A stretch of DNA of 64,000 nt from Thermohalobacter berrensis (GTDB lineage: Bacteria > Bacillota > Clostridia > Tissierellales > Thermohalobacteraceae), in the NCBI RefSeq assembly GCF_003609645.1, contig NZ_MCIB01000034.1, positions 1 through 64,000 on the forward strand. The letters run 5' to 3'. The notes beneath the pieces are model-generated. The model saw only the letters and a list, made by a program, of their open reading frames with translations. It did no database searches and was not told the DNA's origin. The translations under genes and the position numbers were made by a program. How positions within the stretch are numbered: the stretch's first letter is position 1; every line of letters begins with the position of its first letter. Below, piece after piece: positions 166 through 31,845 of the stretch.

Positions 166-244
166 TGAACCGCCGTATACCGGACGGTACGTACGGTGGT
201 GTGAGAGGACGGTAGATGAAATAATCATCTACCTCCTACTCGAT
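1..244 (+). mobile_element. Group II intron, 3' end (ORF tail, domains V and VI)
   Basis: A 34-nt domain V lies at 167-200: its arms begin GAACCGCCGTA and end TACGTACGGTGGT around a small GGAC-containing tip. Domain VI follows at 201-244, with a stem GGTAGATGA (211-219) / TCATCTACC (225-233) and the typical tail CTCCTACTCGAT ending near 244. The layout is that of a mobile retroelement inserted just upstream of the CRISPR-associated gene at 450. The exact 3' splice site is inferred from the conserved tail; the 5' end is outside the window. Bases 245-449 are AT-rich exon sequence with no convincing gene. Confidence 0.85.
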
Positions 245-2218: not shown

Positions 2219-3930
2219 GTTACTAGACTACCTATAAGGAATTGAAACTATCTATATCAACAAATTCAGGTATTTGTTTAGTGTCAGTTACTAGACTACC
2301 TATAAGGAATTGAAACTAAATATCTTTAATTGCACTGCCTGATGTATCTGTTACAGTTACTAGACTACCTATAAGGAATTGAAACTGGATATAGCTTGAG
2401 ATTATCGATGCCACCTGGATTAAGGTTACTAGACTACCTATAAGGAATTGAAACAGTCCTATAACAGTTGGTATATTAGCTTTAATTCTACGTTACTAGA
2501 CTACCTATAAGGAATTGAAACAAATGGGTGGCAATTTTATATTTGCCACCCAAATAATTGTTACTAGACTACCTATAAGGAATTGAAACTTTCTTCTGCC
2601 AATATCTCCTCTAATTTTCCATCTGGTTACTAGACTACCTATAAGGAATTGAAACTAGCGTGGTCTAATCCATCGAATAAATCGTCATGTTCGGTTACTA
2701 GACTACCTATAAGGAATTGAAACTTGGTAGCCAATGCACTATTAAGCATTAAAATTTCAATGTTACTAGACTACCTATAAGGAATTGAAACAATTTTGAT
2801 GATGCCGAGGTTGATTATTATGACCAAGTTACTAGACTACCTATAAGGAATTGAAACATGTATTTTGTTATATCAGGGAATATACTAGTAAAATGTTACT
2901 AGACTACCTATAAGGAATTGAAACCTTTATCCCAATTTACCACGCACTTGCCTGCCTCGTCATCGTTACTAGACTACCTATAAGGAATTGAAACCTGAAA
3001 GAACGAATAATACAACTAGCTTTGAACCTAGTTACTAGACTACCTATAAGGAATTGAAACTTTGATGGCTGGGAAAATAAAAAAATCGTAGGTCATTTGT
3101 TACTAGACTACCTATAAGGAATTGAAACTTCCAGCTTCCAAAACGACTAATAATTGCTGCATTTTGGTTACTAGACTACCTATAAGGAATTGAAACTTGG
3201 TAGAAGGGTAAAGAAAATGGCAATATACTATGAGTTACTAGACTACCTATAAGGAATTGAAACGAGAATTACAAGAAAAATTAATTAAACTAGGATATGG
3301 GTTACTAGACTACCTATAAGGAATTGAAACTTTAAAAGCATAGTCCAAAAATATGAAGATGAAGAGTTACTAGACTACCTATAAGGAATTGAAACACCTG
3401 AGAGATGATTTTTTCCCAATCTGGTGTAAATATGTTACTAGACTACCTATAAGGAATTGAAACTGGACTTTATTTCAAAATAAAAAACCGTCTCAATCTG
3501 TTACTAGACTACCTATAAGGAATTGAAACTTATATTGTCGCTGTTATATCTAAATGTTACAGTACAAGGTTACTAGACTACCTATAAGGAATTGAAACTT
3601 CCAATGCGTACAATCTAACCCTGATACTGTAACGGTTACTAGACTACCTATAAGGAATTGAAACACGTGGGACGGAACTTATTTATGGAATACAGACAGT
3701 AGGTTACTAGACTACCTATAAGGAATTGAAACTATACACATACCTTAAGATTACTGTCAATAGATAGGTTACTAGACTACCTATAAGGAATTGAAACCAG
3801 CTTGCAAACAAAAAGGTAATGGCTGGCATTTAATGTTACTAGACTACCTATAAGGAATTGAAACTCTTCATCTAAATACAGATACCTAAGCATGCCCATT
3901 GTTACTAGAGTACCTATGAGGAACGTAAGT
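2219..3930 (+). CRISPR. CRISPR array, 26 repeats of 30 bp and 25 spacers of 35-40 bp
   Basis: The repeat begins GTTACTAGACTACC and ends GGAATTGAAAC. Twenty-five copies are identical, starting at 2219 and recurring to 3835. The 26th (3901-3930) has decayed (GTTACTAGAGTACCTATGAG, then diverging), marking the leader-distal end. The repeat ends in ATTGAAAC, the usual 5' handle of mature crRNAs in type I-B and type III systems, so transcription is on the plus strand. All spacers differ. The leader promoter at 2175 and the degenerate end at 3901 agree on the direction. No Cas6, Cas1, Cas2 or effector genes are present in the window; the only associated gene is the CARF-HEPN nuclease at 450. Confidence 0.98.
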
Positions 3931-13097: not shown

Positions 13098-13126
13098 TTG
13101 ACAATGGGGAAATATTATAATATGAT
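13098..13126 (+). promoter_or_regulatory. Promoter of the flavodoxin-tetR-FMN_bind operon
   Basis: TTGACA (13098-13103), 17 bp, TATGAT (13121-13126). It lies directly before the two palindromic operator sites. Confidence 0.8.
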
Positions 13127-13194: not shown

Positions 13195-13665
13195 GTGAAA
13201 AGCTTAATTGTTTATGGAAGTAAATATGGTTTTACTGGGGAGTGTGCAGGGATTTTAGCTAAGAAAATATCCGGGAAGGTAGATGTTATAAATCTTGAAA
13301 AGGAAAAAGTTAATAATTTAAACCAGTATGACAACATTATAATTGGCACTTCAATATATGCTGGTAGAATACGTAAGGTTGTAGGAAAATTCTGTAATGA
13401 AAATCTAGATACATTATTGACTAAAAGAATAGGTTTATTTATATGCTGTGGTCAAACTGAGAAGGCAGAAGAACAGCTAGATATGGCTTATCCTGAAGAA
13501 TTAAAAAGACATGCTTTAGCAAGAGAGCATTTAGGATATGAATTTAATTTTAATAAAATGGGTTTTATAGATAAAAAAGTAGTTAAGATGATTGCTAAAA
13601 TAAAAGAAAATAAAAGGGAAATACTAGAGGATAATATTGATAAATTAGCATCTTTTTTTAATTAG
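13195..13665 (+). CDS. Flavodoxin domain protein (HemG/flavodoxin-like)
   Basis: 156 residues. The N-terminus MKSLIVYGSKYGFTGECA is the FMN phosphate loop; YDNIIIGTSIYAGRIRK and GLFICCG are the later flavin-contacting loops of the flavodoxin_5 (protoporphyrinogen oxidase HemG) group. It should be a soluble FMN electron carrier or oxidoreductase. The start is GTG with GGGAG eight bases before. It is followed by a TetR repressor and a membrane FMN-binding protein, so the operon looks like a regulated flavin redox module. Confidence 0.85.
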   Translation: MKSLIVYGSKYGFTGECAGILAKKISGKVDVINLEKEKVNNLNQYDNIIIGTSIYAGRIRKVVGKFCNENLDTLLTKRIGLFICCGQTEKAEEQLDMAYPEELKRHALAREHLGYEFNFNKMGFIDKKVVKMIAKIKENKREILEDNIDKLASFFN

Positions 13666-13679
13666 AAAGGAGTTAAAAG

Positions 13680-14273
13680 GTGGATAAGAAAGAGATTCAA
13701 AGACAACGAAGGAGGAAATATTTTATTGATGCTGCAAAACATATTTTAAAAACTAAGGGAATAGATGATATAACTGTTAGAAAGGTAGCAGAATTAGCGG
13801 GGTACTCTTATGGAACAATTTATAATTATTTTAAAGATCTAAATGAGCTTTTATGGTATGTGGTAGGGGAAATATTTCAAGATATTTTACAATTTATTGA
13901 TAACAATTTAGATGATAACAACAAAGCTTTAGAAGGAATGAAAAATGCATATAGACTATACACAAGTTATTTTATAGATAATCCAAATTTTTATAGACTT
14001 TTATTCTTTTCTCAATTAGGTAAGCCACCTGAAGAGATTGAAGAAAAAATAAGAAAGCCAATTTTTGCTCAAAGACAGATTAAACTTTTAAAACAGTGTG
14101 CTGATGAGGGATTAATTAAAGAAGAGGATATAGAAAGGATAAGTGAGATATTAACGGGGATGGTCCATGGACTTATGCTGTTTCATTTTTCAAACAAAGA
14201 GTTGTTATCAGAAGAGGAGTTTTTTAAAAAAATTGAGGACAACATTGATTTTATATTAAACAGCAAAGAGTGA
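13680..14273 (+). CDS. TetR/AcrR family transcriptional regulator
   Basis: 197 residues. N-terminal TetR helix-turn-helix: ITVRKVAELAGYSYGTIYNYFKDLNELL (about residues 31-58). The C-terminal helical domain would bind an unknown ligand. The start is GTG, seven bases after AAAGGAG, 14 bp after the flavodoxin stop. It probably acts on the palindromes at 13134-13172 in its own promoter. Confidence 0.9.
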   Translation: MDKKEIQRQRRRKYFIDAAKHILKTKGIDDITVRKVAELAGYSYGTIYNYFKDLNELLWYVVGEIFQDILQFIDNNLDDNNKALEGMKNAYRLYTSYFIDNPNFYRLLFFSQLGKPPEEIEEKIRKPIFAQRQIKLLKQCADEGLIKEEDIERISEILTGMVHGLMLFHFSNKELLSEEEFFKKIEDNIDFILNSKE

Positions 14274-14299
14274 AATGAAATTTTTTAGGAGGCTAATAA

Positions 14300-14677
14300 A
14301 TGAAAAAAATAGTTTTTGCTATTCTATTTTTAATTATAATTGGGGGAGTATTTGTAAGCTTATCTATTAACAAATCATTAAATGAAATAGAAGAGGTTAC
14401 ATTAGAAAATATTGACTTTTCTAAATTAAAAGATGGTGTATACGAAGGTAGCTATGAAACTGCTTTAATATCGGTAGCTGTTGAGGTTACAGTTGAAGAT
14501 AAAAAGATTAAAAAAATAGATATTTTAGAACATAAAGAGGGAAAAGGAAAACCAGCAGAAAAGATAATTAATCTTATTATAAAAGAACAGTCATTAGATG
14601 TAGATAATATATCTGGAGCTACTTATAGTAGTAAAGTTATAAAAAAGGCAATTGAAAGGGCTTTACTAAGAGAATAA
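14300..14677 (+). CDS. Membrane-anchored FMN-binding domain protein
   Basis: 125 residues: one N-terminal membrane helix (residues 3-24), then a single FMN_bind domain with DGVYEGSYE and DNISGATYSS. The SGAT motif is the site where ApbE attaches FMN covalently to Thr in NqrC/RnfG-type proteins. It should be an extracytoplasmic electron carrier. It is the third gene of the flavodoxin operon, with AGGAGG before ATG. Confidence 0.88.
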   Translation: MKKIVFAILFLIIIGGVFVSLSINKSLNEIEEVTLENIDFSKLKDGVYEGSYETALISVAVEVTVEDKKIKKIDILEHKEGKGKPAEKIINLIIKEQSLDVDNISGATYSSKVIKKAIERALLRE

Positions 14678-14692
14678 AAAATATTCAAAACC

Positions 14693-14722
14693 TTGATAAA
14701 ATTGGCTAAAATGTGCTATAAT
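14693..14722 (+). promoter_or_regulatory. Promoter of the ABC-F leader
   Basis: TTGATA (14693-14698), 18 bp, TATAAT (14717-14722), followed by the leader ORF with its strong ribosome site. Confidence 0.75.
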
Positions 14723-14751
14723 ACATTTATTAGCAAATAGGAGGTGTAAAG

Positions 14752-14874
14752 GTGAAAACTCAGCTTTTAGTTGATGTTATTTTAGACAGACTACCAGCTT
14801 CTAACTCAGCAATAACTTTTACTTTAATTAACCCTAGGGGTAGTGTGTCTAAAAACAAATATTATGTCAACTAA
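14752..14874 (+). CDS. Leader peptide upstream of the ABC-F gene
   Basis: A 40-residue ORF beginning GTG, six bases after GGAGGTGT, one of the best ribosome sites in the region. It starts M-K-T-Q-L-L-V-D-V-I-L-D-R-L and ends KNKYYVN. It has no relation to any known protein domain. The stop codon lies two bases before the antiterminator segment of the attenuator, exactly where a leader peptide that senses ribosome stalling is expected. Coding status is inferred from the ribosome site and position. Confidence 0.68.
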   Translation: MKTQLLVDVILDRLPASNSAITFTLINPRGSVSKNKYYVN

Positions 14875-14876
14875 AA

Positions 14877-15004
14877 GCAAGTAAATCATCTTTATATATA
14901 GATTTAGCTAGTTAGCCTAGGTAATGATTACTTGCCTAGGCTTTTTTTGTTCATTTTTAAGTTTAAGTCTAGGCGATGATTTAGTTGCCTAGGCTTTATT
15001 TTTT
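14877..15004 (+). promoter_or_regulatory. Transcription attenuator with two tandem terminators
   Basis: Terminator 1: AGCCTAGGTAA (14914-14924) / TTGCCTAGGCT (14932-14942) then T7. Terminator 2: AAGTCTAGGC (14965-14974) / GCCTAGGCTT (14987-14996) then a T-rich run. The segment GCAAGTAAATCAT (14877-14889) can pair with ATGATTACTTGC (14924-14935) in terminator 1 (one bulged A), and GCAAGTAAATCATC can pair with GATGATTTAGTTGC (14975-14988) in terminator 2 (one mismatch). A ribosome finishing the leader would cover this segment and allow termination; one stalled upstream would free it and allow read-through into the ABC-F gene. Confidence 0.78.
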
Positions 15005-15031
15005 TTGAACATTAATAAAGGAGTGATTTTT

Positions 15032-31707: not shown

Positions 31708-31738
31708 TATATTTGGAAATTAAAAAAGAGAATATTTC

Positions 31739-31829
31739 GATTAGGGGAGCCTATAGTGATAGGCTGAGAAAGAGATGTTATCTCTGACCCTCATAACCTG
31801 ATGTGGTTAGTACCACCGTAGGGAAATCT
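31739..31829 (+). ncRNA. TPP riboswitch (THI element)
   Basis: The conserved core reads GGGGAGCC ... GGCTGAGA ... GACCCTCATAACCTGAT ... GGTTAGTACC ... CGTAGGGAA, closed by a GATT/AATC P1 helix. It binds thiamine pyrophosphate and controls thiSFGHCE through the terminators downstream. Confidence 0.97.
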
Positions 31830-31845
31830 GTATTAGTGTATATGT

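Follow-up and report, generated by a model that had tools for sequence, protein, structure and literature searches.

A candidate ribosome-responsive attenuator with one antiterminator segment and two tandem terminators upstream of an ABC-F gene in Thermohalobacter berrensis

How is an ABC-F gene controlled when a translatable reading frame and two terminator-like hairpins separate it from its putative promoter? The question arises in a 64,000-nucleotide stretch of the Thermohalobacter berrensis genome (contig NZ_MCIB01000034.1; hereafter the window), where a first-pass annotation had proposed a leader-peptide attenuator in which a single antiterminator serves two terminators. The parts that it named, a consensus-like promoter, a 40-codon ORF with a strong ribosome-binding site, and two stem-loops with T-runs ahead of the ABC-F start, are all present (Table 1), with the RNA start expected near position 14729. 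Comparative evidence supports the leader-ORF attenuator with its single antiterminator and two terminators, and we consider it probable that the locus is a ribosome-responsive attenuator in which ribosome occupancy of the leader start is sensed, and in which an antiterminator segment (A) has three competing partners: the leader start region (S) and the two terminators (T1 and T2).

Table 1. Features of the attenuator locus and other elements noted in the window
Feature	Position	Strand	Remarks
Promoter-like site TTGATA-18-TATAAT	14693–14722	+	11/12 consensus matches, TG before −10; consensus match alone
Whole switch (leader ORF, A, two intrinsic terminators)	14739–15006	+	
S (leader SD, start codon and first codons)	14739–14760	+	Predicted anti-antiterminator
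Leader SD AGGAGG	14739–14744	+	
Leader start codon GTG	14752–14754	+	
Leader ORF, 40 codons plus stop	14752–14874	+	Peptide MKTQLLVDVILDRLPASNSAITFTLINPRGSVSKNKYYVN; halves of the ORF pair with each other
Leader stop codon TAA	14872–14874	+	Leader codons end at 14871
Conserved core GGGGTAGTGTGTCTAAAAACAAATATTATGTCAAC	14837–14871	+	3′ strand of leader hairpin
A, antiterminator segment AAGCAAGTAAATCATCTTTATAT	14875–14897 (about)	+	Predicted to pair with S, T1 or T2, one at a time
Terminator T1	14914–14949	+	Hairpin 14914–14942, then T-run
Terminator T2	14965–15006	+	Hairpin 14965–14996, then T-run
ABC-F ATPase gene, 631 aa	15032–16927	+	SD AAAGGAG at about 15017
Flavodoxin, TetR and FMN-binding genes	13195–14677		Directly upstream, same direction
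Promoter-like site of these upstream genes	13098–13126		Strong; their own
CRISPR array	2219–3864	−	25 repeats matching Rfam CRISPR-DR2
Group II intron domain match	168–244		Rfam RF00029
TPP riboswitch	31733–31841		

Distribution of the leader element and its downstream genes

Covariance-model, DNA, protein and pattern searches place the element in about 40 non-redundant Bacillota loci. About 41 non-redundant copies are real, with about 28 before an ABC-F gene and 13 before an MFS gene, and wherever the downstream gene is readable it is always one of these two, with no other type seen. Of 150 related genomes searched at the DNA level, about a dozen carry the leader before the orthologous ABC-F gene, and two covariance models (R1 and the improved R2) identified further copies in the order, class and phylum, including five element-bearing genomes outside the class (L109–L113). 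Scanning about 85,000 species genomes for the exact core returned 17 loci, nearly all titled Clostridia or Bacillota, with carriers such as Lutispora, Haloimpatiens, Anaerosolibacter, Anaeromonas, Clostridium sp. KNHs214 and one Pelosinus MAG. By the covariance models, T. berrensis has just two copies, one with ABC-F and one with MFS; the latter is diverged, lies on the minus strand before an MFS transporter (G000:C6:45741-45912; L002, L062), and has a single terminator.

Some copies have unusual contexts. In the Pelosinus MAG UBA6563 (L067) the leader is intact and no long ABC-F ORF follows, with ABC-F motifs lying in broken frames, and in L074 the contig ends ahead of the downstream gene. 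A decayed leader copy (L055, 1501-1675) has stops inside, and no resistance-like gene was read downstream of it. Weak model matches inside coding regions (L061 and L101) were dropped, as were antisense matches in L048, L049, L075, L076, L077 and L108. No Rfam family matches the leader at its gathering score, with only chance matches at E<=10, and a search of plasmid records at blastn sensitivity gave no leader match.

The gene downstream in the window codes for an ABC-F protein, with two ABC domains and the ABC-F linker (NF000355, PF12848) and a score of 493.9 bits against the general model NF000355 (cut-off 380). None of the NCBIfam exception models for antibiotic resistance (ARE) proteins (Vga, Lsa, Sal, Msr, OptrA, CplR and others) reaches its cut-off, the best scores and cut-offs being 354/1450 for OptrA, 353/725 for Vga and 333/780 for CplR; the closest solved structures are YbiT, EttA, YheS, VmlR2 and PoxtA, with similar scores. 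The NF000355 match was set aside as a sign of resistance function, since a second ABC-F protein of the same genome, whose gene does not have a leader of the present kind, passes that model too. Because the protein falls outside every curated ARE subfamily, it is the type of control that makes its gene a probable antibiotic-protection gene. The MFS protein has weak similarity to named efflux families.

Pairing of segment A with three partners

The first-pass annotation had pointed to a segment, 14877–14890, that begins two bases past the leader stop and complements the inner part of each terminator. We reproduced both observations, with the segment (GCAAGTAAATCATC) pairing with inner T1 at −12.9 kcal/mol and with inner T2 at −17.6 kcal/mol. 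T1 and T2 are the sole plus-strand terminator-like sites between 13000 and 18000, an interval that has five such sites on its two strands compared with 1.0 +/- 1.0 in shuffles. Among 20 non-redundant ABC-F loci, 16 have two terminators with matching insides; all nine MFS loci have one (an extra site listed for L056 is inside the gene).

When each locus's own pairing energies are compared with those of swapped partners, A:T1, A:T2 and A:SD have z values of −4.8, −5.2 and −4.0 in the ABC-F loci, and A:T and A:SD have −3.5 and −3.6 in the MFS loci. Controls with reversed partners, in which composition and relatedness are kept, gave +0.5, −2.5 (T2), −0.2, −1.8 and −0.7, and it is only through these controls that the swap (permutation) test takes kinship into account, with the T2 control reaching −2.5. 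In one locus (L018), A (GCTTATAAATCTATC) and both terminators are all altered and complementarity is kept. On these sequence comparisons A is matched to both terminators beyond chance, with T1, T2 and A having changed together across loci. Another candidate pairing, between a CCTAGG in the window leader and the terminator arms, was ruled out, with CCAAGG at that place in other loci.

Two features went unremarked in the first reading: A also pairs with the leader SD and start (14744–14755 and 14758–14760 of S), and the entire leader ORF forms one long hairpin. Folding had been suggested as a check, and the leader region does fold strongly (z = −8.6 relative to dinucleotide shuffles). The fold predicted for the first loci is a single long hairpin running from the SD to about 25 nt beyond the stop, built of bases that differ from locus to locus and closed at its base by A paired with the leader SD/start region. 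Folded singly, some MFS loci (L056, L057, L059 and L063) depart from the long leader hairpin, and A pairs weakly with the start region in some MFS loci (L056, L057, L059).

A lack of conserved pairing in relatives was to have counted against the attenuator reading; such pairing is found, and favors it. An early alignment had 43 double-change cells compared with 22.7 +/- 3.8 after shuffling, and the A3 alignment of 29 loci has 95 compensatory double-change cells compared with 41.6 +/- 5.4 after shuffling and at most 69 in slid controls, with 79.7% of cells paired compared with at most 43.7% in the slid controls. Both sides change at 8 of the 11 pairs of helix 1 (S:A) in A3, and loci outside model building show 63 double changes compared with 26.8 +/- 4.2. 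Because A3 and the alignment of outside loci were both fitted to the covariance model's structure, we give the within-locus and swap tests more weight than these counts. Compensatory changes thus accompany the mutually exclusive pairings expected of an antiterminator and an anti-antiterminator, as judged from the aligned sequences.

Ribosome position, the conserved core and other readings

We then folded the nascent transcript as far as the T1 loop, keeping the bases under a ribosome footprint unpaired. With no ribosome, the ABC-F loci have on average 16.0 A:S pairs and 1.8 A:T1 pairs. A ribosome on the start codon raises the A:T1 mean to 14.7, one six codons on leaves 11.8, and one fourteen codons on leaves 2.1; with A shuffled there are 4.8 A:T1 pairs, and A:S and A:T1 are both lost. 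In these folds A is on T1 when the ribosome is within about the first seven codons and on S from about codon 14, and with a ribosome at the leader stop it is either masked or on S. Four loci (L006, L018, L059 and L063) are predicted to form A:T even without a ribosome, and two others (L015 and L056) have weak A:T. Computation gives the parts, their conservation, their covariation and complementarity, and the way in which folding depends on where the ribosome sits; we infer termination and read-through in the cell, and likewise the identity of the inducer.

In the mechanism that we propose, a leader without a ribosome would form the long hairpin with A:S at its base, so that A would be locked and T1 and T2 would stop transcription (OFF). 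Unhindered translation would carry the ribosome past S to the stop beside A, where it would partly cover A, and A:S could re-form (OFF). A ribosome held at about codons 1–7 would cover S and leave A free to pair with the nascent T1 loop before the 3′ arm of T1 emerges. Once the polymerase had moved beyond T1, T1 would close and release A, A would pair likewise with T2, and the ABC-F gene would be transcribed (ON). Likely inducers would be drugs that halt ribosomes at or just after initiation, and an ON state at the first codons is predicted to fit lincosamides, pleuromutilins and streptogramin A better than macrolides. The idea that a terminating ribosome covers A survives in a secondary role, with the predicted OFF state arising mainly from pairing of A with the leader SD and start.

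The energies bear on the steps of this mechanism to different degrees. When S is covered and RNA polymerase still encloses the final 6 nt of T1, A:T1 is favored in all 20 ABC-F loci, by 1.6–12.7 kcal/mol. A fully emerged T1 or T2 hairpin usually exceeds A:T in stability, and antitermination would therefore have to be kinetic; a kinetic win for read-through is something that folding energies cannot prove. At T2, the fold of the window locus and of three relatives (L007, L009 and L010) has T1 closed and A on T2, which is why we propose serial use of A. The energy comparison at T2 is mixed, with A:T2 unfavored in several loci, and the passage of A from T1 to T2 would be the least secure step.

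The most conserved part of the leader is the core, and several readings of it compete. The first-pass annotation had suggested that conservation of the leader peptide be checked. The C-terminal peptide is indeed in frame in 21 of 29 non-redundant loci, where it reads S-x-S-K-I-K-Y-Y-V-N or similar, and it is out of frame in the other eight (L005, L018, L051, L052, L053, L056, L058 and L070). A drug-bound ribosome might recognize nascent SKIKYYVN and stall late, as in erm or msrD leaders, with antitermination following. The in-frame loci are consistent with such an arrest, with codon position 3 varying most (0.19, compared with 0.085 and 0.053 at positions 1 and 2), yet the out-of-frame loci keep the RNA sequence, and most of them the hairpin, and in most loci A does not pair with T when the footprint sits at a late codon or on the stop. 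Since the sequence persists when the frame changes, the C-terminal peptide is unlikely to be the sensor; ribosome position is the likely one, and we regard peptide-specific arrest as improbable. A macrolide +X+ arrest motif (K-I-K) in the core peptide was ruled out, as SKIIYYVN, SKFNNYVN and SKNMNYVN also occur. Out-of-frame copies (L005, L018, L051, L052, L056, L070, L098, L105 and L107) have the core mostly in one alternative frame (VCPKLNIMLT-like), which is commoner among them than the other wrong frame.

Alternatively, A could be controlled by translation rate, solely through coverage by a terminating ribosome and with no role for the leader start region. A terminating ribosome would reach A, which starts 2 nt past the stop in the window; nearly all loci have the leader stop between 5 nt before and 34 nt after the end of the core. 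We nonetheless think this quite unlikely, in that A:S pairing covaries in both gene classes, and the prediction for a leader without any ribosome is that A is locked rather than free.

The strong conservation of the core, the 3′ strand of the hairpin, appears not to be fully explained by pairing. The core sequence (GGGNNNAGTNYG, at the same place in relatives) resembles the elemental RNA polymerase pause consensus. Of 39 loci, 38 have G-10 and 34 have G+1, and all have T-3 and a pyrimidine at -1; we take these to be the key positions of that consensus. Chance alone yields many instances of the pattern in the window, whose own site departs from the full pattern at one base, so the argument for a pause signal comes from conservation alone, and we treat it as a lead only. 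We can offer, as a tentative elaboration that may well be wrong, that A is handed from T1 to T2 within one transcript and that the frame-independent leader 3′ strand (GGGNNNAGTNYGTC) makes RNA polymerase pause until a ribosome loads on the leader start. The same excess of conservation, beyond what pairing or reading frame explains, would suit a protein or small molecule that binds the leader hairpin or core and sets termination in place of the ribosome. This seems very unlikely to us, as a well-placed SD and start codon are kept inside the switching helix, the downstream genes are related to translation or efflux, and no candidate binding protein was seen traveling along. A reading in which T1 and T2 just mark the end of the operon upstream, with the ORF a chance occurrence, would suit the co-directional flavodoxin, TetR and FMN-binding genes, but it has next to no probability, being already contradicted by covariation and by the recurrence of leader and terminators, with compensatory changes, beside ABC-F or MFS genes across Bacillota.

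Relation to known attenuators

The ribosome-responsive switch that we favor has the layout of an attenuator, with a translatable leader ORF and its SD between promoter and terminator and one or more intrinsic terminators before the structural gene. Arrest at the start of an upstream ORF (uORF) that opens an anti-antiterminator would resemble what is described for vmlR and cplR. In Bacillus subtilis vmlR, the uORF lies within the anti-antiterminator hairpin ahead of an ABC-F gene and an intrinsic terminator, and an initiation-arrested ribosome opens the hairpin so that the antiterminator forms; the inducers are lincosamides and pleuromutilins, and within a hairpin of this type the uORF has pause sites opposite it (PMC9226507). 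The vmlR uORF has three codons (MIN), there is a single terminator, and sequestration extends to the vmlR SD (PMC9226507), whereas the present switch has a uORF of about 40 codons, whose second half supplies the other strand of the hairpin, and an antiterminator common to two terminators. The clostridial cplR genes (Clostridioides difficile and Clostridium) likewise code for ABC-F proteins and have a uORF inside a 5′ hairpin, with transcription attenuation relieved by retapamulin or lincomycin; their uORF has three codons (MR[I/M]), and the terminator hides the cplR SD (PMC10201436). The present ABC-F belongs to another subfamily than CplR, given its score against that model, and the leader ORFs here, at 34–52 codons, are unlike the three-codon uORFs (MR[I/M] or MIN) of the cplR/vmlR leader family.

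B. subtilis bmrB-bmrCD has a long leader ORF (162 bp) with terminator, antiterminator and anti-antiterminator in a drug-dependent transcription attenuation of a transporter, its own features being a terminator inside the ORF, an ABC exporter downstream and one terminator (PMC4191407). Streptococcal msrD/mef and Bacillus ermK share a leader ORF and transcription attenuation of ABC-F, MFS or methylase genes (PMC10314930, PMC4335068, PMC5418344); msrD depends on macrolide-dependent stalling on a short leader peptide, whereas the C-terminal peptide here is not always in frame. Our literature searches found no paper with a KYYVN leader peptide (one match is unrelated), no tandem-terminator ABC-F attenuator, with the number of ermK terminators left out of this comparison, and no earlier description of the present switch. 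Because uORF length, the self-folding ORF, the shared antiterminator and the two gene families all differ, we file it as a variant of ribosome-mediated transcription attenuation outside the vmlR/cplR leader families.

The switch thus appears to be an undescribed and widespread one in Bacillota, with one design before ABC-F and MFS genes and sometimes both in one genome. It would read ribosome occupancy of the leader start by pairing with the very bases of the ribosome-binding site, and since one antiterminator appears to be matched to two terminators in tandem, serial antitermination can be put to a direct test. It also marks out ABC-F and MFS genes that are unclassified as probably induced in response to drugs that target the ribosome.
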